A stretch of 40,400 nucleotides of DNA from Verrucomicrobium spinosum. GTDB lineage: Bacteria > Verrucomicrobiota > Verrucomicrobiia > JADLBR01 > JAIBCM01. Below the pieces are notes generated by a model that was not told the DNA's origin, ran no database searches, and saw only the letters and a program-made list of their open reading frames with translations. A program made the position numbers and the translations under genes. The DNA is taken from positions 18,090 through 58,489 of the forward strand of contig DYRQ01000003.1 in the NCBI GenBank assembly GCA_020718645.1, written 5' to 3'. Every line of letters starts with the position of its first letter. Position 1 is the first letter of the stretch. Positions 24,459-36,314 of the stretch are shown here, one piece after another.

Positions 24459-26645
24459 ATGATGTTTGTGCGCACTTATTGCCGCCTCCTTTCGGGGCTG
24501 ATGTTCGGGGTGTTCGCCCTCTTGGTTCCCTGCCTATCGGCGCACGCTGACCTCGGCAAAAAAGCCGAGCCTACTAAAGTGCGTTTGCAACTGAAATGGA
24601 AGCACCAGTTCCAGTTTGCTGGTTATTATGCAGCGATTGAAAACGGCTACTACAAAGAGGCTGGCCTAGAGGTGGATCTCATCGAGGCAGCAGAGTCTGT
24701 CCCCCCGCATAAAAATGTGCTGACTGGGAGAGCTGACTTTGGGATCGAGGGAATCGAACTCCTGAAGCTCTATTCTTCTGGGCACGATGTGGTCATGCTC
24801 GCCCCCATATTCCAGAGCACCGCCCATGTCATTATCGCCCGAACGGACAGCCAGATCCACTCTTTGCAAGATCTCGCAAAAAAGCCTGGCATGATCAACA
24901 TTGCTGTGGCTGAAGAACTTTTTCTCCTCCGAAACGGTGATGCTTTTAACCAGCCTGATCGAACGCGGAACCACTCCTACACCCTCGACCCTTTCATTAG
25001 CGGTGAGGTTGCTTACATGTCAGCTTACACCTCGAACGAACCGTTCTTGCTGCAACAGCTCGGTATCCCTTTCCGCATATTACCCAATCCCAGCACCATG
25101 AGCAGCTTCTACGGGGATTGCCTTTATACCACTGGGCGGTTCCTGCAAGCCAACCCTGAGCTGGCTCACCGCTTTGTGGAAGCCAGTCTCAAGGGCTGGA
25201 GGTTCGCTCTCGAAAACCCTGACGAAGTCTTGCAGATCATCCAGCGAAAATACCAGACTCACAAGAGTCAGGAACACCTCCTGTTTGAAGCTCAGGAGTT
25301 ATCTCGCCTCATCAACCCCACCCTGGTTCCCGTAGGATTCTCGAACCCTGATCGCTGGGAGGCAACCGCCGATGCCTTACTGAAAGCTGGCGTGCTCCAC
25401 GCCCCTTTAGATTTGACAGGGTTTCTCTATGTTCCCACCAGCTATGTGATCCCCCCATGGGCCATCCCCATTACCGCTGCCAGTGTTTTGGCGGCGACTG
25501 TCATGGGCATTATTGTGCGCAAGCACCAAACCGTAGGGCGCCTGCTCCGCAGGGAGATTGCGGAGCGCAGCGCTGCTGAGGACAAACTACGGCAGAGCGA
25601 GCTGCGGTATCGTCTGTTGGCAGAGAACGCCTCTGACCTCATCTGGACGACCAATACTGCTGGCCAGATCACCTATGTGAGCCCTTCTCTTTTTCCTCTG
25701 CTCGGATACACGCAAGAACAGGGGCTGCAGATGGCATGGAAAGATCTGGTTTCCCAACATTCTCTCGATGCTGTGGAAACCCATTTTCACCAAACGCAAT
25801 CGCCCGACGCCAACTCGCCGCGAACCCACCATAGCATCGAGGTGCTCATGAAACGATGCGATGGCACTGGTGTCTGGACCGAGTGGATAGCCCACCTCTA
25901 CCACGACGCTGTCGGGGATGCCCAGGGCATCCTGTGTGTCGCCCGCAATATCGAGGAACGCCGGCGCGACGAGAAACGACTCTGGGCGAAGCTCCGCTAC
26001 GAGCAGGGTTTGTCCGATTTCGCCAAGGCACTCCAGTTGGTCGAATCGGGACGCTCGCCGATTGAAGAGTCTCTCCAGCACCTCCAGTCCACCCTACATG
26101 TCAGCAGGGCTTATATCTTCGATATCATCGAGCACCCTGACAGTGGCCCGTGTTGGCGGCACCTCCATGAAGCCTGCGCGGCTGATATAGAGCCGCATAT
26201 ACAGAATCCCGATCTTCAGGCTGTCCCATTCTCCGCATTGCCCCACTGGCTCCAAACCATGAAATCTGGCAGGTGCGTCCAAGGCCCAGTCGCCTCACTT
26301 CTTGACCCAGAAAAAACCATGCTGGACAGACTGGGTATCCTCTCGATCTACTGCCTCCCGATCATGGTGGACGGCACTTGGTTTGGGTTCCTGGGCGTGG
26401 ACGAATACACAACCGCCCGAGTCTGGAATGATGCCGAGAACCGGCTCCTGCAGACAGCTACAGACATGTTGCAGCTCTACTACAGCCGCAGGCGGGCCAA
26501 CAAGGAAATGATGAAAGCTCTCGAAGATCTGCGCGAGAATAACAGATTCATGACTGGGCGCGAGCTGCGCATCCTCGATCTCAAACAAGAAATCAACAGC
26601 CTGATGTCCGAGCTGGGGCGACCGAAAAAATACGATGAAGCCTAG
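24459..26645 (+). CDS. Receptor-like protein: signal peptide, NMT1/THI5-like substrate-binding domain, TM, PAS, GAF-like; no histidine kinase domain
   Basis: KVRLQLKWKHQFQFAGYYAAIENGYYKEAGLEVDLIEA (NMT1/THI5-like), TM (IPITAASVLAATVMGIIV), PAS (RLLAENASDLIWTTNTAGQITYVSPSLFPLLGYTQEQ), GAF-like region, ends RELRILDLKQEINSLMSELGRPKKYDEA-stop. Confidence 0.85.
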   Translation: MMFVRTYCRLLSGLMFGVFALLVPCLSAHADLGKKAEPTKVRLQLKWKHQFQFAGYYAAIENGYYKEAGLEVDLIEAAESVPPHKNVLTGRADFGIEGIELLKLYSSGHDVVMLAPIFQSTAHVIIARTDSQIHSLQDLAKKPGMINIAVAEELFLLRNGDAFNQPDRTRNHSYTLDPFISGEVAYMSAYTSNEPFLLQQLGIPFRILPNPSTMSSFYGDCLYTTGRFLQANPELAHRFVEASLKGWRFALENPDEVLQIIQRKYQTHKSQEHLLFEAQELSRLINPTLVPVGFSNPDRWEATADALLKAGVLHAPLDLTGFLYVPTSYVIPPWAIPITAASVLAATVMGIIVRKHQTVGRLLRREIAERSAAEDKLRQSELRYRLLAENASDLIWTTNTAGQITYVSPSLFPLLGYTQEQGLQMAWKDLVSQHSLDAVETHFHQTQSPDANSPRTHHSIEVLMKRCDGTGVWTEWIAHLYHDAVGDAQGILCVARNIEERRRDEKRLWAKLRYEQGLSDFAKALQLVESGRSPIEESLQHLQSTLHVSRAYIFDIIEHPDSGPCWRHLHEACAADIEPHIQNPDLQAVPFSALPHWLQTMKSGRCVQGPVASLLDPEKTMLDRLGILSIYCLPIMVDGTWFGFLGVDEYTTARVWNDAENRLLQTATDMLQLYYSRRRANKEMMKALEDLRENNRFMTGRELRILDLKQEINSLMSELGRPKKYDEA

Positions 26646-29600
26646 CCACATCTCCCCTGAGAGTCCCAAGCACCGAGCCGACCCTAGGGTAGTGGTTGCG
26701 GTTTGCGCTGCCTTCCTCACTGTCGCCGCCCTCGTATCTGTGACCGCCTCAGCTACTCTTTGGCAAATGTCGCGGCAGTTGCTTGATAAACATTTTTCCT
26801 CATCCACCCTGCTCACACGCCTAGCTGTTGAGCACTCGAAAAAACAGCTTTCCGAGAGCGCCGACGCTCTAGCCAAACACCTTTCCTTACCCCGCCTACC
26901 CGACAAGACTCCACGGGTGTCCACCCCCCCTTTCCCTCCCGACCTACCTGAATTGTCCGTGCATATGGTGGCTTGCATTAATAGCGAAGGCTCTCTGCTT
27001 TTCTGCCACCATGTAGATCCTGATACACGGGAGGTTTACCCCGCGCCTACCACCCTGCTCGATCAATCCATCTCCCGAGCCAGAGAGATGATCTCCCAAG
27101 GCATATTCTCGCCGATCAGCTTCGCCGTGTGGGAAAACAGGATTCTGGCATTCGCCGTGCGAGAAATACCCGCCAAACCCGGCATAGATCCGAGTTACTG
27201 CATCGTGTTACGCTGGTTCAGCAGCAGAGATTTTCCTGTGCTCGAACAGGTGACCGGCATCTTGATCCAACCCGAGAGCCTCTCCTCTGTTTACCCCAGC
27301 AAATACAGCGTCACCTACCCAGACGAATTTCACCCGGGACGCATTATCGCCTTCCGCTCTTCGCAAACGAGAGTGTCGTTTACCCACACTCGCCATCTGG
27401 GGCTGCTCTGGTTATTGAGCATGGTCTCTGCTCTCCTATGTGCCGCCGGGACGCTCTACTGCCTGCATCGGTTCGTATGGCAGCGGGTGGAACGCCTCGT
27501 AGCCGCCAAGATTTCTTCCGGCTCTGTTTTCCTCGATACCTGTCGGATGGAATCAGCAGGCTCGGATCCCATATCTCGTTTGGCTGCTTCCTTGGCGACT
27601 GGTTCTACATCCGCTCCGAACACCTCTTCTCAGTCTGTAGTCCGAGACGACCTTTACCGGCGTTTTTTTCAATCAGCCCCCGTGATGTTGCTGGTTCTGG
27701 ATCGCACGGATCGCATTCTCCAGCTTAACAGACCACTCTTGGCCGAACTCACGGCTGACCCGGATGAACTGATCGGCAAAAAACTCACTGATCTATTTAC
27801 CACCGCGAGTGTCCAGCTATGGCAAGAGGACACACGCAGTCGGTTCTGGAGGCTGGGCACTATCCGGGATGCAAAGCTGACCGTGACGCGCAGAGATGGC
27901 ACCTCTTTTCCTGCCATACTCGACGGCGATACGGCACTGGGCTCAGAAGGAGAAATGGTTGCCCTTTTATCCATCAGGAACATGGCGGGTAAAATCGAGG
28001 AAGAAGAAGAACTTAAGATCAGTGAGCAGCGGCTGCGATTTTTCTTCGATCTCCCGTTTATCGGCATGGCTATCACCACGCCACTGATCCACTCTTGGGT
28101 GCAGTTCAACCCGCGGCTGCGGGAGATGTTTGGCTACTCAGCCGTTGAATTGGTTCGCTTGACTTGGGAGCAGCTCACGCATCCGGACGACCGTATGGCA
28201 GACCAGTTGGCTCGGGAACAAATGCTCGCTGGACAGGCTGAGGCGCATCTTTGCGACAAACGATTTATCAGGAAAGACGGTTCCACATTCCACGCTATGT
28301 CGCATACCCGCGTCATCCGAAGACCAGATGGCTCCGTGCAGTTTTTTGCCACCATCATTCAAGACATCAGCGAACAAAAAGAACGAGAGAGACAGCTCCG
28401 GGATTTACTCCAGACCAATGAGAATAACCGCAAAGCCATGCTGAACCTGATACGAGACTCCGAGAGAGCCCGTGAAGAACTCCAAGCCGCCAAAGAGACC
28501 GCGGATAAAGCCAGCCGAGCCAAAGGGGATTTCTTGGCCGTGATGAGCCACGAAATCCGGACTCCGATGAACGGCATACTCGGCATGACCCAGGCGCTCC
28601 AGCGCTCCGTGCTCACTCCCGCGCAACAGTCATTGGCAAACACTCTGTGTGAAAGCTCTGAGTCTCTCCTCTCCATCCTCAACGATGTCCTCGACCTCTC
28701 GAAAATTGACGTTGGCCGTGTCATTCTGGAAGCAATTCCTTTCCCGCTCTCCGAGCCGGTCTCTCTGTGTACCGATTTTTTCAGAACCAAAGCCATTGAG
28801 AAAAACCTCTCCCTCCAATTGAGCCTTGATCCTTCCCTGCCAGACACCGTCGTTGGGGATCCAGCGCGCTTGAGACAGATTTTACTGAACCTCATCGGCA
28901 ATGCCGTCAAATTTACCCATGCAGGCTCTGTCACTATCTCAGCCAAGAAAAAAGCTGAGGGCGCTGGGTGGATCTCAATCCTATTTTCAGTAAAGGACAC
29001 CGGGATCGGAATCCCAGCTGAAGCCCTAGAACGCATCTTTCAGAAATTTGAACAAGCAGACGCCTCGACCACTCGTTCATTCGGCGGCACTGGTCTTGGT
29101 CTCGCCATTTGCAAAAATCTCGTCGAACTCATGCAGGGGAGCATCAGTGTGGAAAGCCAGCTTGGTGCCGGATCCAACTTCCAATTCCATGTCACGCTCG
29201 GCACGGCACCCCACGACACAGAAACTCCTCCTCCTATTCGAAAAAGCCGGACCTTCGAAATACTACAACCCTCAAAAAAACTCAAAATCCTCTGCGCTGA
29301 AGATATCCCCACCAACCAGAGAGTGGCTCAACTCCAAGTCGAATCTATCGGCCATGAGATACACTTGGTAGCAAACGGTGCAGAAGCCATCCGTGAACTC
29401 TCAACTAACCGCTATGATGTCGTTCTGATGGATATCCGAATGCCCGAGTTGGACGGCGTAGATGCCACGCGTATCATCCGCGACCCTCAGTCGCCAGTGC
29501 TCGATCACAACATTCCGATTATAGCTCTGACAGCAAACACCTCCACCGAAGAAAAAAACACTTTTTTTGAGGCGGGCATGAACGACTTTCTCCCCAAGCC

Positions 29601-29994
29601 AATCAGGGAGGAAGACCTATTCCTCTGCCTCGAGCGTATCGCCACTCCGAGCGGTCCAGATTCTCTGTGCGATCATGAAGCCACCCCTATGGATCAGCTC
29701 GATGAGGAGATTGCTCAAGAAGTGGCACAGGTTTTCGAAGAGACGGTGCCGGACACCCTGTCGCAATTCTGCCAAGCCATCACTGAATCTAGTTGGAAGG
29801 AGGCTGCCAGATTGGCTCACGGGCTCAGATCTCCCTGCGCCATGTTCGGGTTCCAAGCCGCAGCAGCCCTGTGTAAAAAAGTCGAACTGCTCTGCGACAC
29901 CCAACCGCCAGAGGGTATCGGCACATTATCTTCGGAGTTTTGCTCTGCGATCACGGATTGTGTAAAACAGCTCAAGCTCCGAGGCTCTCCATGA
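26635..29994 (+). CDS. Hybrid sensor histidine kinase: two TM, PAS-PAS, HisKA, HATPase_c, receiver, Hpt
   Basis: KGDFLAVMSHEIRTPMNGILGM (H-box), GGTGLGLAICKNLVELMQG (G-box), receiver KILCAEDIPTNQRV...DVVLMDIRMPELDG...PKPI, Hpt-like AARLAHGLRSPCAMFGF. Confidence 0.93.
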   Translation: MKPSHISPESPKHRADPRVVVAVCAAFLTVAALVSVTASATLWQMSRQLLDKHFSSSTLLTRLAVEHSKKQLSESADALAKHLSLPRLPDKTPRVSTPPFPPDLPELSVHMVACINSEGSLLFCHHVDPDTREVYPAPTTLLDQSISRAREMISQGIFSPISFAVWENRILAFAVREIPAKPGIDPSYCIVLRWFSSRDFPVLEQVTGILIQPESLSSVYPSKYSVTYPDEFHPGRIIAFRSSQTRVSFTHTRHLGLLWLLSMVSALLCAAGTLYCLHRFVWQRVERLVAAKISSGSVFLDTCRMESAGSDPISRLAASLATGSTSAPNTSSQSVVRDDLYRRFFQSAPVMLLVLDRTDRILQLNRPLLAELTADPDELIGKKLTDLFTTASVQLWQEDTRSRFWRLGTIRDAKLTVTRRDGTSFPAILDGDTALGSEGEMVALLSIRNMAGKIEEEEELKISEQRLRFFFDLPFIGMAITTPLIHSWVQFNPRLREMFGYSAVELVRLTWEQLTHPDDRMADQLAREQMLAGQAEAHLCDKRFIRKDGSTFHAMSHTRVIRRPDGSVQFFATIIQDISEQKERERQLRDLLQTNENNRKAMLNLIRDSERAREELQAAKETADKASRAKGDFLAVMSHEIRTPMNGILGMTQALQRSVLTPAQQSLANTLCESSESLLSILNDVLDLSKIDVGRVILEAIPFPLSEPVSLCTDFFRTKAIEKNLSLQLSLDPSLPDTVVGDPARLRQILLNLIGNAVKFTHAGSVTISAKKKAEGAGWISILFSVKDTGIGIPAEALERIFQKFEQADASTTRSFGGTGLGLAICKNLVELMQGSISVESQLGAGSNFQFHVTLGTAPHDTETPPPIRKSRTFEILQPSKKLKILCAEDIPTNQRVAQLQVESIGHEIHLVANGAEAIRELSTNRYDVVLMDIRMPELDGVDATRIIRDPQSPVLDHNIPIIALTANTSTEEKNTFFEAGMNDFLPKPIREEDLFLCLERIATPSGPDSLCDHEATPMDQLDEEIAQEVAQVFEETVPDTLSQFCQAITESSWKEAARLAHGLRSPCAMFGFQAAAALCKKVELLCDTQPPEGIGTLSSEFCSAITDCVKQLKLRGSP

Positions 29995-32465
29995 TACGAC
30001 GCTGGGCCACTCATTGCATGGCCACAGCCTTCCATCGGGTTTTTACTTGGAGGTGGACTATCGTATTTGCCCCCACTTTTTTACTGCTGGCGGGTGCCGC
30101 TCTAGCCCTCATCGTCTGGATCGAAATCCAACTCGCCCAATGGGGAGCCAGCCAGTCTTTGGACTTCCACGGAGAGTGGCAGCTCATCACCCCTATTTCC
30201 CTCACGCTATCGCTGACTCTGACGGCGATCTTGGCCGCTGCCTTCTCGACTGTCGTATCCTCACTTTGGTCTTGGGCTCACTACGAACATGCCGAGCGCC
30301 TTGAGTCCGACCACACCCTCTCAGTATATTTTGAAAACGGGTGGACCTGCTCAGCTATAGTCGGAACTGGTGATGATCAAAGAGGAGTGGTGCTGAAAGC
30401 CAACGATGCGTTCTGCCTATTGCTCAATTCGCCACCAGAAAGCGTGGTAGGCAGGAGGTTGGAGGCTCTCGCCCCACCTACCCAAGGCTACATTTTATTA
30501 AGAGCTATCCAAACGACCCTCGACACAGGACATGCAGCATGCCTAGCGAAACTATCCTGTGGGAACGGGCGCGTCGCCGCCCTTGAAGTCGAGATGTTTC
30601 TCTCGAATTCTACCAGCGATCACCATCTGCTGATACACGCCCGACAAGCCTATACAGATCCGAACAATTTCGAGGAAAACCTGCGCGCCAGACAAATCGT
30701 GGACAACTGCTCTGACGGCATCGCCTTTCTCGACCTCCAAGGCTCTTGCCTCTACGCTAATCCTGCTGCCTGCCGACTCACGGGCTGGTCCACTGAAGAA
30801 ATCCGGGGCAAACGCCTATTCGACGCTCATTCCTCGCTCCCCAACAGCCCGTGGCACGAGATCGCCGAATCTCTTAGACTAGGGGTCTGCAGATCATTTG
30901 AAACTGTGGCTAAACGGAAGCAGGGCGGCACTCTCGATGTCGAGATACGGCTGGTGCGAGTAAGCGAAGACCAGTCAAGCCTGCTGCTGGCCTGCTTCCA
31001 CGACATCGGCGAGCGCAAACAATTTCTCGAGCAAAATCGCATCTCTCGAGAAAGAATGCAGATGGCCTTGGCGGGTGCCAACCTCGGTTGGTGGGAATAC
31101 GACTTGGGTCGGAGCCACATGGAAAGCAGTGATCGATGCTACGAAATTACTGGACACGAGCAACAGCAGCTCACCAATAAAAACGAAGGGTGGAAATCTC
31201 TCATCCACCCCCAAGACACCCACAGGTTCGACGCCTCCCTCGACGCCACCACCAAAGGGCTTACCCCCCATTTCTCCTCCACTGTCCGACTCTGGCACCG
31301 CTCAGGTAAATGGATCTGGGTCTCGTGCAGAGGGAGAGTCACCCGCCGCAATCTCGAAGGCTTGCCCCTCGTGATCTGTGGCACCATGCACGATGTGAGC
31401 GAATCCAAAGATCTCGAGGACGCCCTCCAAGCCAGCGAATCCCTCTTCCGCAGCCTAGCCCTCTCCTCAGGTGAAATTTTGGTCTTGCTTAACTCAGACG
31501 GCAAAGTCTCCTTCTGGAACCAATCAGCCACCCGCATCCTCGGCTACCCCATGGAAGACATGCTCGACCTCCCCATCACCGACATCCTGCGCGACACTGA
31601 AGGGAATCCCTTGGGCATCCTCGATAACCCCGCCCTACTTTTCAGCCAACCCCCAGGCAAACCATTGGAACTCTCGTGCTCCGCTATCCATAAAAATTGC
31701 TCCACAGTCACACTCGAAGCTTCTCTCTCATGGCTAGACTACCATTTCGGACGCTCGCTGGTGCTCGTGGCACGCGATGTCAGCGAACAGCGACGACTGG
31801 AACAGGAATTCCTCTCCCTCACCGAATCCGAGCAGCGGCGCATGGGCCACGAGCTGCACGACACTGTCTGCCAAGACTTAGCTGCTCTGGCCCGAGCCGC
31901 GGAAGTCTCCATGCTCAGGCACAAGTCCCTCGACCCCTCCGTCCGTCATGACTTAGAAAAAATCCACGCCACTGGACTCGCCTCGCTCCGGTCGGCTCGC
32001 AGCTTGGCCCATGGGCTTTCGCTGATGGAAAAGGACATAGCCTCCCTTGAAAAAAGCCTAGTCCAGCTAGTGGAAAATGTATCTAGTTTGACCGGCGTCC
32101 AATGCTCCATCTCATGCCAACCCAGCATCTCTCATCCGAACAGCGAGGTTTTCGCCCAGCTCTACCGCATTGCAAAAGAGGCGGTCAACAACGCCCTCAG
32201 ACACTCGTGCTGCGAGTCCATTCATATCTCCTTATCCGTCCAGACTGGCGCCATCTGCATGGAGATCACCAACGATGGAAACATCTACAAAGTCCCCGCC
32301 CAAACCGATAATAGCGGTTTAGGATTGAAATTAATGAACTACCGCGCCAGAAGCATCGGAGGGACTTACCGGATACAACCAGGCCAATCATCGGGAGCCA
32401 CCGTTTCCGTCAGGATTCCTGGTGCGGGTCGGCAAGAAGATTACCAAGAAAAACAGACTGCATGA
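29991..32465 (+). CDS. Membrane PAS sensor histidine kinase of the HisKA_3 (NarX/UhpB-like) type
   Basis: N-terminal TMs, multiple PAS domains, ESEQRRMGHELHDTVCQDLAALARAAE (HisKA_3), RIAKEAVNNALRHS, NSGLGLKLMNYRARSIGGTYRI. ATG at 29991 overlaps the upstream TGA; track ORF starts at 29940. Confidence 0.9.
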   Translation: MIRRWATHCMATAFHRVFTWRWTIVFAPTFLLLAGAALALIVWIEIQLAQWGASQSLDFHGEWQLITPISLTLSLTLTAILAAAFSTVVSSLWSWAHYEHAERLESDHTLSVYFENGWTCSAIVGTGDDQRGVVLKANDAFCLLLNSPPESVVGRRLEALAPPTQGYILLRAIQTTLDTGHAACLAKLSCGNGRVAALEVEMFLSNSTSDHHLLIHARQAYTDPNNFEENLRARQIVDNCSDGIAFLDLQGSCLYANPAACRLTGWSTEEIRGKRLFDAHSSLPNSPWHEIAESLRLGVCRSFETVAKRKQGGTLDVEIRLVRVSEDQSSLLLACFHDIGERKQFLEQNRISRERMQMALAGANLGWWEYDLGRSHMESSDRCYEITGHEQQQLTNKNEGWKSLIHPQDTHRFDASLDATTKGLTPHFSSTVRLWHRSGKWIWVSCRGRVTRRNLEGLPLVICGTMHDVSESKDLEDALQASESLFRSLALSSGEILVLLNSDGKVSFWNQSATRILGYPMEDMLDLPITDILRDTEGNPLGILDNPALLFSQPPGKPLELSCSAIHKNCSTVTLEASLSWLDYHFGRSLVLVARDVSEQRRLEQEFLSLTESEQRRMGHELHDTVCQDLAALARAAEVSMLRHKSLDPSVRHDLEKIHATGLASLRSARSLAHGLSLMEKDIASLEKSLVQLVENVSSLTGVQCSISCQPSISHPNSEVFAQLYRIAKEAVNNALRHSCCESIHISLSVQTGAICMEITNDGNIYKVPAQTDNSGLGLKLMNYRARSIGGTYRIQPGQSSGATVSVRIPGAGRQEDYQEKQTA

Positions 32466-33115
32466 AAATACAGATTATGATCGTGGACGACCATCCAGTC
32501 GTCCGTAAGGGGATAACCGAAATGCTCGGCCTCTGGGATGACTTCGAAGTCATCCGCGAGGCAGGCTCGATCTTGGAGGCCACCCGTGCCCTCGACTCAG
32601 GTGTGAACCCCTCTGTCATCATGCTCGACTTAAACTTGCGCAATGGTAGCGGACTCGAGTGGATCAAAAACCGAGCCGCTCTCGGACGCCTCCCCACCGT
32701 CTTGGTGATGTCCGTCAACGACGAAGAGGTCTATGCCGAACGCTGCCTCAGAGCAGGTGCCCGTGGCTATATCATGAAAGACGCTCCCGCGGAGGATATC
32801 GCCACCGCCATCCGGAAAGTCCACTCCGGTGAGATCGCCGTCTCCTCAGGCATCGCCTCCAAACTCATCGCCTACCAGCACCCGCCCACCCGCAACAACG
32901 AACCTCTCAACCGCTCCCTCTCCCTCCTCAGCGACCGCGAGATGGAAATCTACCAGCAACTCGGCACCGGAAAAAATACCAAGGAAATTGCTGACCTCCT
33001 CCACATCAGCCCAAAGACCGTGGAGACGCACCGGATCCACATCATTGATAAACTCAACCTGACTGGCGCAGTAGAGCTGGTTCGCCATGCCACAGCTTGG
33101 CAAGAAAGCCAATAA
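32462..33115 (+). CDS. NarL/FixJ-family response regulator (REC + LuxR-type HTH)
   Basis: IMIVDDHPVVRKGITEML, SVIMLDLNLRNGSGLEWI, HTH LSDREMEIYQQLGTGKNTKEIADLLHISPKTVETHRIHIIDKLNL; ATG overlaps the upstream TGA. Confidence 0.95.
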   Translation: MKIQIMIVDDHPVVRKGITEMLGLWDDFEVIREAGSILEATRALDSGVNPSVIMLDLNLRNGSGLEWIKNRAALGRLPTVLVMSVNDEEVYAERCLRAGARGYIMKDAPAEDIATAIRKVHSGEIAVSSGIASKLIAYQHPPTRNNEPLNRSLSLLSDREMEIYQQLGTGKNTKEIADLLHISPKTVETHRIHIIDKLNLTGAVELVRHATAWQESQ

Positions 33116-33135
33116 TTTCCCAGTCTGCCCCCCGC

Positions 33136-34170
33136 ATGAAGCTCGACGACCTTTCCCAATGGCCACCCCGCAGGCGGATGCGCCGCTCCCGCTCCGGCCC
33201 TTCGATCCGCTCGGTATTGCAGGAGACACACCTCTCTGCCTCCGACCTGATCGCTCCGCTTTTCGTCAAGGAATCCGCCACTACCCCCGAGCCGATAGCC
33301 TCCATGCCCGGGGTCTTCCGCCTCGGCATCCGCTCTGTGGTGGATGAGTGCCGCACCCTCCACACTCTAGGCGTGCGCGGCGTCGCCCTTTTTCCCTGCA
33401 CAGATCCCTCCCTGAAAAACCCCAAAGGTAGCGGCGCCCTCGACCCGCAAGGCCTCATCCCGCGCACGCTGGCCGAGATTAAATCATCCGTGCCAGGCCT
33501 CCTGGTTTTTTGCGATGTCGCCCTCGACCCCTACACCGACCACGGCCACGACGGCGTGCTCGATGCCAGTGGCACCGTGGACAATGACGCCACCGTCGAG
33601 ATCCTCTGCCACATGTCCCTCTGTCTGGCACAGGCAGGGGCAAATTTCGTAGCGCCCTCCGACATGATGGACGGCAGAGTCGGCGCCATCCGAGACACCC
33701 TCGACCACTCGGGCCACCACAGCACAGGCATCCTCGCCTATGCCGCCAAGTTCGCCTCTGCTTACTACGGACCCTTCCGAGATGCCGTAGGCAGCGCCCG
33801 CCCCTCCTCCGAAGGCTACCTCGACAAGCGCGGCTACCAACTCAATCCAGCCAACCCAAGAGAAGCCCTGCTCGATGCCCTGCTCGACGAGGAAGAAGGA
33901 GCCGACATCCTCATGGTCAAACCCGCCGGCCCCTACCTCGACATCCTCACCCGATTGCGGGAGCATACCCTCCTGCCCTTGGCCGCCTACCAAGTGTCGG
34001 GGGAATACTCCATGATCCATGCCGCCGCCGAACGCGGCTGGACGGATCTCCCCCGCACCAGACTCGAATCGTTACTGGCTATCAAACGCGCCGGCGCCGA
34101 TATCATCCTCAGCTACTTTACAAAAACTGTTGCCGAGGAGTTGTCCCGCCCAAGTTTTAGCATAGACTGA
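33136..34170 (+). CDS. hemB: Delta-aminolevulinic acid dehydratase (porphobilinogen synthase)
   Basis: CDVALDPYTDHGHDGVLD, FVAPSDMMDGRVGAIR, ILMVKPAGPYLDI, YQVSGEYSMI. Track ORF starts at 33097 inside the response regulator gene; Met at 33136 preferred. Confidence 0.95.
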   Translation: MKLDDLSQWPPRRRMRRSRSGPSIRSVLQETHLSASDLIAPLFVKESATTPEPIASMPGVFRLGIRSVVDECRTLHTLGVRGVALFPCTDPSLKNPKGSGALDPQGLIPRTLAEIKSSVPGLLVFCDVALDPYTDHGHDGVLDASGTVDNDATVEILCHMSLCLAQAGANFVAPSDMMDGRVGAIRDTLDHSGHHSTGILAYAAKFASAYYGPFRDAVGSARPSSEGYLDKRGYQLNPANPREALLDALLDEEEGADILMVKPAGPYLDILTRLREHTLLPLAAYQVSGEYSMIHAAAERGWTDLPRTRLESLLAIKRAGADIILSYFTKTVAEELSRPSFSID

Positions 34171-34222
34171 ACGCCGTGCTTGGTTTAGATCATCCACGCC
34201 CCAAGCAGAGCTGGAGGGCACC

Positions 34223-35689
34223 GTGCAGGCTCGTATCCACGAGCCCCAGCATACACGTGTTTTAGCGATGGACCTACTGCTTTTTCTGTTTGCTGTTGCG
34301 ATCGTGCTCTTGGCCTGGAAACTGCGCCAGATGCTCGCCGCTGCCGCGTGCGCCCGCCGCGAGGCTCAGACACTACGCGAGGAAAAGACCGCTATCTACC
34401 GCCTGCTCCACGACCTCGGCGAAGCCTTCACCCGTTCCCCTGACATAGCCGCGCTCATGGGCATCGTAGCCCGTTCTTCCATGGAGATCACCCGCGCTCA
34501 AGGCGCTGCTGTCCTCGAGCTAAAACCCGGACAAAAACAGGCACTCATCCTCGCCACCTCCGGACGATTCCCCCCGCTCTCCCCCATGTCCCGCGAGGTT
34601 TTAGCCAAACTGGCCGACCACCCAGAATTTCTGGACGCCCAACTCCGCGCCACTCCACTCTCTTCCGACACCGACCTCATCGTCACTGTCCTCGACAGCG
34701 GCGCACTCTACCTGCCAGACGCCACGCGAAGCCGGCTGCTCCCCGTATTGGAGCACCCCCTCATCCGCTGGATTTCCTGCCTCGCAGTGCCCCTGCGCTA
34801 CCGCGGGGAAAACTACGGCGTGCTCATGGTGGCCAACTCCACGGACATCACCTCGTTTTCACAGGCCGACCTCGACACCTTGCACTCCATAGGCACCCAA
34901 GCCACCTACGCCATGCACAACACCCGCGTTTACGGCGAACTCCTAGCCAAACGCGAACTCGATCACGAAATCGAAGTAGCCAAGGAGATCCAGCGCATCC
35001 TACTCCCAGACACCTGCCCTGAAATCGAGGGTTGGGACATCGAGGCCGTCAACCTCCCTGCCCGCGATGTCAGCGGAGACTACTACGATTTTATCCCCCT
35101 GCGCGACGGCAAACTCGGCATCGTCATCGCCGATGTCTCCGGCAAAGGCATTCCCGCCTCCCTAGTCATGACCATGTGCCGTGCCGCCCTGCGGTCGCAC
35201 GCCGAACGACTGGATTCACCAGCCGCCGTGCTCTGCGCCCTCAACCGCCAGCTCTACCCAGACATCCGCGAGGACATGTTCGTCACCCTCACCTACGCCG
35301 TGCTCGACCCCGCATCCAGACAAGTTTCCATGGCCCGGGCCGGCCACGAAGCCCCACTGTTTTATCGCGGTGGCAAAATCGAACTGATCCGCTCGCCGGG
35401 CATGGCCATTGGCATTGACAGCGGGGAGGTCTTCGATACTGTCATTGCCGAAACCTCCTTCCAGTTCGAGCTAGGAGACGCCTTCGTCCTCTATACCGAC
35501 GGTGTCACCGAAGCCCTGAACCCCGAAGGTAAGGAATTTGGCAGGGAATGCCTCATGGAGACTGTCCAGCGCTCGGCCCGCCACGGGGGCGAGTCTATTC
35601 TCCGAGAAATACTGGAGCAGCTTGACAGCTTCAGGAGCACCGCCGACAAATACGATGATATTACTTTGATTACAGCCTATGCACAGTGA
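34223..35689 (+). CDS. Membrane-anchored GAF-PP2C (SpoIIE/RsbU-like) serine phosphatase
   Basis: N-terminal TM, GAF-like domain, EVAKEIQRILLPDTCPEIEGWDIEAVNLPARDVSGDYYDFIPLRDGKLGIVIADVSGKGIPASLVM, YTDGVTEALNPEGKEFG. Start at 34268 also possible. Confidence 0.9.
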   Translation: MQARIHEPQHTRVLAMDLLLFLFAVAIVLLAWKLRQMLAAAACARREAQTLREEKTAIYRLLHDLGEAFTRSPDIAALMGIVARSSMEITRAQGAAVLELKPGQKQALILATSGRFPPLSPMSREVLAKLADHPEFLDAQLRATPLSSDTDLIVTVLDSGALYLPDATRSRLLPVLEHPLIRWISCLAVPLRYRGENYGVLMVANSTDITSFSQADLDTLHSIGTQATYAMHNTRVYGELLAKRELDHEIEVAKEIQRILLPDTCPEIEGWDIEAVNLPARDVSGDYYDFIPLRDGKLGIVIADVSGKGIPASLVMTMCRAALRSHAERLDSPAAVLCALNRQLYPDIREDMFVTLTYAVLDPASRQVSMARAGHEAPLFYRGGKIELIRSPGMAIGIDSGEVFDTVIAETSFQFELGDAFVLYTDGVTEALNPEGKEFGRECLMETVQRSARHGGESILREILEQLDSFRSTADKYDDITLITAYAQ

Positions 35690-36314
35690 GGATAAAAAAC
35701 AGGGTCACCACCACTCCGGTGGAGACATAAAAAACACACACGGCACCCGTGCCGACGCGCCCGCGCCCCAAGACAAAGCTCAGGCGCCTGCCGACAAAGC
35801 CACGCCCACCCCGCCCCGCCACGAGTTGAGCTTGATCGGCACCTCCTACTTGGAAAAAATCGAAACCCTAGCCGGCCAAGCCGTCCAGCTCCAAGAACGC
35901 CTCATTCGCTGCTCTGCCGACCTCGACAACTACCGCAAACGCGCCGCCCGCGAAAAAGAAGAAGCCGTCAAATATGCCGGCGAAGGATTCCTCGAATCCC
36001 TCCTCCCCGCCATTGACAGCTTCGAGCTGGGCATCCAATCGGCAGCCACCACCACCGACGCTGCCGCTATCGCCCTCGGCATGAAGATGGCCATGACCCA
36101 GCTTTTCCAGATACTCGAACAACACGGCATTTCTGCTATAGACGCCAAAGGCCAAAAATTCGACCCGAACCTCCACGATGCAGTCAGCCACGCCGAGGTC
36201 CCCGACACCGAAGAAGGAACCGTCGTCCAGCAGATCCGCAAAGGCTACAAAATCAAAGGCCGCCTGCTACGCCCCGCCAGCGTCGTGGTCGCCAAAGGCA
36301 AATCCGTTTCGTAA
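35679..36314 (+). CDS. grpE: Nucleotide exchange factor GrpE
   Basis: CSADLDNYRKRAAREKEEAVKYAGEGFLESLLPAIDSFELG, KFDPNLHDAVSHAEVPDTEEGTVVQQIRKGYKIKGRLLRPASVVVAKG. Confidence 0.93.
   Translation: MHSEDKKQGHHHSGGDIKNTHGTRADAPAPQDKAQAPADKATPTPPRHELSLIGTSYLEKIETLAGQAVQLQERLIRCSADLDNYRKRAAREKEEAVKYAGEGFLESLLPAIDSFELGIQSAATTTDAAAIALGMKMAMTQLFQILEQHGISAIDAKGQKFDPNLHDAVSHAEVPDTEEGTVVQQIRKGYKIKGRLLRPASVVVAKGKSVS

Follow-up and report, generated by a model that had tools for sequence, protein, structure and literature searches.

The question raised by this locus is whether four adjacent signalling genes form a single multi-input complex, as a sequence-only reading had proposed, and, if so, what could hold such a complex together. 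Within the 40,400 nucleotides of DNA that were analysed (the window), the ORF listing places these genes on the plus strand between 24459 and 33115, in the order and with the overlaps of 11, 4 (ATGA), and 4 (ATGA) nt that had been described for the junctions 1/2, 2/3, and 3/4. Our domain calls also agree with the earlier ones (NMT1 + PAS + GAF; PAS-PAS-HisKA-HATPase-REC-Hpt; PAS repeats-HisKA_3-HATPase; REC-GerE):

24459..26645, plus strand: gene 1, membrane receptor without kinase (728 aa; signal peptide, periplasmic NMT1/THI5, transmembrane helix, PAS, GAF, tail T)
26635..29994, plus strand: gene 2, unorthodox hybrid kinase (1119 aa; two transmembrane helices, PAS, PAS, motif M, HisKA, HATPase, REC, Hpt)
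29991..32465, plus strand: gene 3, HisKA_3 kinase with two transmembrane helices, multiple PAS domains, and HATPase (824 aa, counted from ATG 29991)
32462..33115, plus strand: gene 4, NarL/LuxR-type response regulator (REC-GerE; 217 aa)

For gene 3, we took ATG 29991 as the start, while the automatic ORF listing had chosen an alternative upstream TTG at 29940. Catalytic motifs are intact at the phospho-acceptor and ATP sites of both kinases, in the REC and Hpt domains of gene 2, and in the REC domain of gene 4.

Stop/start overlaps of 4 and 11 nt are common, and the PP2C and GrpE genes of the same window likewise overlap by 11 nt (34223-35689 / 35679-36314). Since no obvious Shine-Dalgarno sequence is seen upstream of genes 2-4, translational coupling of genes 1-4 is plausible and no firmer than that. 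The start of hemB lies only 20 nt past gene 4 with no plus-strand terminator-like site seen in between, and the transcript may therefore continue past gene 4 and read on into hemB, so that the unit need not stop at gene 4. The stretch from 33116 to 36314 carries hemB followed by genes for a GAF-PP2C protein (RsbU/SpoIIE-type), GrpE, and DnaJ, and the signalling genes may thus be co-transcribed with haem and stress genes. A conserved synteny of the cassette with hemB was considered and rejected: In six relatives, hemB has no cassette genes directly beside it.

Much of this would be expected from an ordinary two-component cluster, i.e., two separate kinases and one regulator with a co-transcribed receptor that makes no dedicated contact to a kinase. 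Two-component genes cluster strongly in any case, short overlaps of these lengths are widespread, and the hemB genes of relatives lack an adjoining cassette. Neighbourhoods of an HKRRHPt gene beside a response regulator and of the HKRR-HK2-RR2 type have already been catalogued, with a response regulator next to 9 of 12 verrucomicrobial HKRRHPt genes (PMC4558063). The conservation of the four-gene order was checked at the loci that encode the C-terminal tail of gene 1 (tail T, see below), and the exact order was found at no other T locus examined. Nearest to it come L064 (T, HisKA_3 kinase, NarL-type response regulator) and L241/L242 (T, HisKA kinase, REC in L241, HisKA_3 kinase with M, divergent REC-GerE). 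The four-gene run is a new arrangement of parts that are already known. However, an ordinary cluster leaves unexplained both the near-invariant tail of kinase-less receptors and its exclusive association with kinases that bear motif M, and we regard this explanation as unlikely.

Gene 1 had been taken for a soluble receptor, which is wrong: With a signal peptide at aa ~10-28 and one transmembrane helix it is a membrane protein, which places its NMT1 domain in the periplasm and its PAS and GAF domains in the cytoplasm. Its features are:

24606..25226, plus strand: NMT1/THI5 periplasmic binding domain (PF09084, 2e-33)
25461..25517, plus strand: transmembrane helix, aa 335-353 (hydropathy 2.16)
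25605..25952, plus strand: PAS (PF00989, 4e-11)
26067..26471, plus strand: GAF (PF01590, 2e-6)
26502..26633, plus strand: tail T, aa 682-725, conserved C-terminal helix of kinase-less receptors and candidate kinase-docking element

The NMT1 match lies above the Pfam cut-off (116.5 bits) and covers the full length of the profile (positions 1-215/216), and the nearest solved structures among PDB sequences are 4nmy (4e-16) and ThiY (3ix1, 2e-9). The domain thus has the NMT1/THI5 binding-protein fold, and by sequence similarity its ligand may be of the thiamin-pyrimidine type. Homologues of the N-terminal 347 residues occur in 46 of 197 genomes of the phylum, and most of the 20 long NMT1 homologues that we annotated combine NMT1 in a single chain with optional PAS, HisKA, HATPase, and sometimes REC. 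Because the NMT1 homologues of the phylum are mostly such single-chain kinases, the window by its domain composition holds a split form of this common sensor kinase. The same genome encodes a second NMT1 protein (L031, G000:C65:4222-4842) of about 385 aa without the receptor part, which is 39% identical to the N-terminus of gene 1 and could be the transport counterpart for its ligand. L093 was rejected as a second NMT1 receptor with T, since the local NMT1 profile had drifted and the protein is actually a tandem SBP_bac_3 receptor. An AlphaFold2 model of gene 1 computed from the single sequence reached a pLDDT of 35 and was set aside.

The C-terminal end of gene 1, ALEDLRENNRFMTGRELRILDLKQEINSLMSELGRPKKYDEA, contains no known domain. 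A search with its last 47 residues recovered this module from 10 of 58 class-level relatives, whose translated loci share the C-terminal sequence NRxMVGRELRMIELKKEINxLCxxxGQPxRY; it was not found in the nearest relative examined (same family, 85% complete). This tail T spans ~44 residues with the pattern NRxxVGRELRMIELKxEINxLxxxLGxPxRY. At least 507 stretches encode it when one genome per species is considered, and the best 80 of these come from Verrucomicrobiota, Planctomycetes, Lentisphaerae, Nitrospirae, Fibrobacteres, Bacteroidetes, Ignavibacteria, Chloroflexi, Elusimicrobia, Omnitrophota, Aminicenantes, Acidobacteria, Geobacter and other deltaproteobacterial lineages, and Alpha- and Gammaproteobacteria. 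T lies within 45 aa of the stop in 163 of 165 distinct tail genes, with a median of 10 aa following it. Its core RE..R..ELK...N.L....G.P..Y is near-invariant (R 99%, E 100%, K 99%, Y 96%), and R19, E20, R22, E25, L26, K27, N31, L33, and Y43 are each conserved in at least 92% of 164 unique tails. AlphaFold2 predicts one continuous helix of 44 residues with a mean pLDDT of 92 (PAS-T segment, 52 sequences).

The receptor parts in front of T vary widely. Among 77 T receptors chosen for having no HATPase match, we found PAS in 65, REC in 17, GAF in 9, and a few cases of dCache, SBP_bac_3, CHASE, PocR, Amt, and CheB/CheR, and none of the 25 commonest families is a kinase family; across the full set, a HATPase match occurs in frame with 6 of 165 tail genes. 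With sensors this different and no kinase, the common element of T proteins is therefore the tail and not the sensor. Judged by these sequences, T is a conserved module at the extreme C-terminus of kinase-less receptors across many bacterial phyla, and gene 1 belongs to this group by its T profile match at the extreme C-terminus without a kinase or any other output domain. This bears on the idea that gene 1 arose from an NMT1 hybrid kinase by decay or truncation, i.e., a non-functional remnant that lost its catalytic part and now lies beside an unrelated kinase. Single-chain NMT1 kinases are indeed the common form in the phylum and gene 1 lacks a kinase domain, but its end is not ragged and instead consists of a conserved 44-residue module found in hundreds of other stretches, and its NMT1, PAS, and GAF domains are intact, which makes decay highly improbable.

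A kinase with M does not stand behind every T gene: The gene directly downstream encodes a kinase in 77 of 156 cases and a second T protein in 18 of 156. In Paroceanicella profunda, for example, the gene behind an SBP_bac_3-PAS-T gene encodes a HisKA-HATPase-REC-Hpt kinase, and in Vitreoscilla filiformis a PAS-T gene precedes one for a PocR-type hybrid kinase; in both cases the two genes overlap by 4 nt. The kinases behind tail genes often share a motif before HisKA, which we call M and which has the consensus [SR]R[RK]AALN[LM]MEDAxxAR. In gene 2, where the motif takes the form SRRAALNMMEDAxxAR, it matches with an E-value of 8e-8 and lies 1778 nt downstream of T, which makes gene 2 an M-bearing kinase:

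28402..28491, plus strand: motif M of gene 2, aa 590-619, NRKAMLNLIRDSERAREEL, helical linker directly before HisKA and proposed receptor for T
28519..28710, plus strand: HisKA of gene 2, SHEIRTP at aa 638
28855..29199, plus strand: HATPase_c of gene 2
29287..29622, plus strand: REC of gene 2, LMDI at aa 931
29719..29973, plus strand: Hpt of gene 2, AHGL at aa 1061

With HisKA, HATPase, REC, and Hpt in one chain and the H, D, and H residues intact, gene 2 is an unorthodox hybrid kinase. It also has a transmembrane pair and PAS domains of its own, and gene 1 is therefore not its sole input.

T and M were sought separately over the same 197 whole genomes of the phylum, which yielded 58 T sites in 31 genomes and 40 M sites in 27. 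On the strand of T, 34 of the 40 M sites follow it at a distance of 111-3218 nt, and T is present in 24 of the 27 M genomes (p=1.6e-21 for co-occurrence). Well under one adjacency would be expected by chance, by our own estimate from about two T sites per 4-5 Mb genome and windows of 6 kb. The source genome has one T and one M, adjacent to each other, among 36 HisKA matches. Beyond the phylum, M follows T at 29 of 32 sites in 29 genomes picked for T and at 14 of 22 sites in 149 genomes not picked for T from the phylum of a Geobacter (p=6e-8 for co-occurrence). In 22 genomes chosen for holding T and M, we compared the 150 best HisKA sites: M is present in 15 of 15 sites within 6 kb downstream of T versus 0 of 135 others (p=6e-21), with an M model that was built from kinases beside T, some of them from test-set genomes, and a scan that was itself blind to T. 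The association goes beyond a mere kinase-neighbour effect, and the choice of genomes and the training set of M do not dictate where M lies.

T might nevertheless be a homodimerising, S-helix-like coiled coil that sets the dimer geometry of the receptor, with M playing a similar role in the kinase and their co-occurrence reflecting another contact such as PAS-PAS. Both elements look helical and adjoin PAS domains, and signalling helices are frequent between PAS and output domains. Yet charged residues of T are invariant and its end reads G-x-P-x-x-Y, T is almost always C-terminal and followed by no output domain, and M, in contrast to a generic signalling helix, is specific to the kinases beside T. 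We consider this reading quite unlikely.

Docking of T on M is our preferred explanation for genes 1 and 2 because the two elements co-localise across phyla far beyond chance. Some partner kinases (L066-L068, L097) lack any sensor domain and comprise only M-HisKA-HATPase(-REC), and in natural fusions (L158, L149) T lies inside the kinase chain before HisKA; both observations fit docking.

The loci vary in their layout. The fusion at L158:5469-11114 reads PAS-PAS-PAS-T-HisKA-HATPase-REC-REC, L149:4746-12218 is also a fusion, and at G338:C33:6041-6880 T and M each match within an open frame of 1592 aa, probably one and the same. Numbers of T and M do not always agree: Two T sites accompany one M in L245/L246, while in L240 (G200:C1:17265-17591) a PAS4-T receptor precedes a kinase of about 367 aa with five successive M-like matches upstream of HisKA. 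Four genomes of one genus (L221, L225, L226, L258) have two tandem T sites followed by a kinase with two M (M-PAS-M-HisKA), which is suggestive, though only that, of a separate docking site for each tandem receptor. At L088, L107, L110, and L156, a PAS-T gene (CheB-CheR-PAS-T in L088 according to Pfam) is followed by a separate gene for ~340 aa that matches the local binding-protein profile, a profile that had drifted, and in L088, L107, and L156 an M-bearing kinase comes after it; these are possibly receptors with a detached periplasmic binding protein.

Genes 1 and 2 thus probably form one sensor kinase distributed over two proteins that are joined by T-M docking and relay to gene 4, with gene 3 as a second input. 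Our inferences on the physical contact, the way control runs, the ligand, and the partners in phosphotransfer are as follows. A small molecule would bind the periplasmic NMT1 domain of gene 1, and the resulting change would pass via the one transmembrane helix, PAS, and GAF to the C-terminal helix T. T would dock on M, the helical linker that immediately precedes the DHp (HisKA) of gene 2, and alter the coiled-coil state of this linker, by which the kinase would be switched. Gene 2 would then relay His-Asp-His from HisKA over REC to Hpt, and from there most likely to the REC domain of the NarL-type regulator encoded by gene 4. The membrane HisKA_3 kinase of gene 3 would serve as a second input, most likely by phosphorylating gene 4.

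The proposal of a single multi-input complex therefore needs to be divided. A shared complex of genes 1 and 2 is well supported as a prediction by tail T, motif M, and their cross-phylum co-localisation, and it would gain a mechanism if T docks on M. One physical complex including genes 3 and 4 is not supported: With a HisKA_3 and HATPase kinase adjoining a REC-GerE regulator, these genes look like an ordinary HisKA_3/NarL-type two-component pair, in an order unseen at the other T loci examined. Neither T nor M is recognised in them. Genes 2 and 3 probably converge on the gene 4 regulator, as gene order and knowledge of these families suggest.

In more general terms, T and M may together make up a dedicated docking code by which, in many bacterial phyla, receptors of any kind are plugged into a separate histidine kinase at the pre-DHp linker. 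Genes 1 and 2 would then exemplify a general class of split sensor kinases that has not been described as one, an idea that we put forward tentatively and hold to be somewhat short of probable. Neither T nor M gave anything above the cut-offs in Pfam, NCBIfam, or PDB sequences, the letters of T were not found in open-access papers, and literature searches returned precedents but no description of T or M. The pair appears to be a variant of histidine-kinase signalling that is uncatalogued in the libraries searched, and such absence is no proof of its being undescribed. Of the run that had been suspected to be an under-described system, the part that looks under-described is the T/M pair, which the sequence-only reading had missed. 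For hundreds of receptors that lack a kinase and carry PAS, GAF, Cache, binding-protein, or CheB/CheR domains, no output is recognised. Should T dock on M, these receptors would act through the adjoining kinase, and the motif pair would assign receptor to kinase by sequence alone. It would also provide a ready connector by which selected sensors could be wired to selected kinases, as well as an easy way of testing linker-coil control in histidine kinases.

EvgS/EvgA and BvgS/BvgA combine a periplasmic binding-protein-type sensor, a transmembrane segment, PAS, and HisKA-HATPase-REC-Hpt with an adjoining NarL-type regulator, and genes 1, 2, and 4 together have the same sensor type, kinase layout, and adjoining NarL-type regulator. 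The chain of gene 2 holds no SBP domain that could serve as a periplasmic VFT sensor and scores 185.6 bits against the EvgS profile (cut-off 1995), and gene 2 would thus work like EvgS, but is not EvgS. At this locus, sensor and kinase are separate proteins, NMT1 takes the place of a tandem VFT as the sensor, and a second kinase stands in the run; the tandem SBP_bac_3-PAS-T receptor L093 is a closer split analogue of the BvgS/EvgS sensors than gene 1. Kinases of the BvgS family are switched by linker coils before the DHp (PMC5829827), and RsbT switches RsbU by ordering the coiled-coil linker of RsbU (PMC12143880). The latter resembles the action proposed for T on M in that a separate protein acts on a helical linker controlling a dimeric catalytic domain, but it is a phosphatase system of a different family in which T and M are not expected. 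In LuxP-LuxQ and TorT-TorS, a soluble periplasmic protein meets the periplasmic domain of the kinase. The likeness lies in a separate binding component with a hybrid kinase, and the transmitter of gene 2 scores well against the TorS and LuxQ profiles of NCBIfam, whereas the proposed contact of genes 1 and 2 would be cytoplasmic, from helix to linker. Profiles of the MctS/MctR, UhpB/UhpA, and NarX/NarL kind give the best matches to the gene 3 kinase core and gene 4 (PAS-type, MctS, UhpB, and NarQ in NCBIfam for gene 3; MctR, NarL, and GacA for gene 4). All full-length profiles score far below their curated cut-offs, however, so that there is no equivalence, and gene 3 differs by its multiple PAS domains and its position behind a hybrid kinase. 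Finally, in the LadS/RetS-GacS/GacA network a hybrid kinase with Hpt channels the signals of several kinases to one NarL-type regulator, and the locus studied here is similar in having several kinases, one NarL-type regulator, and a hybrid kinase with Hpt. The genes of that network are dispersed, all its sensors have kinase domains, and it includes no kinase-less tailed receptor, whereas in this window the genes are adjacent and the receptor of gene 1 lacks a kinase but bears a tail.
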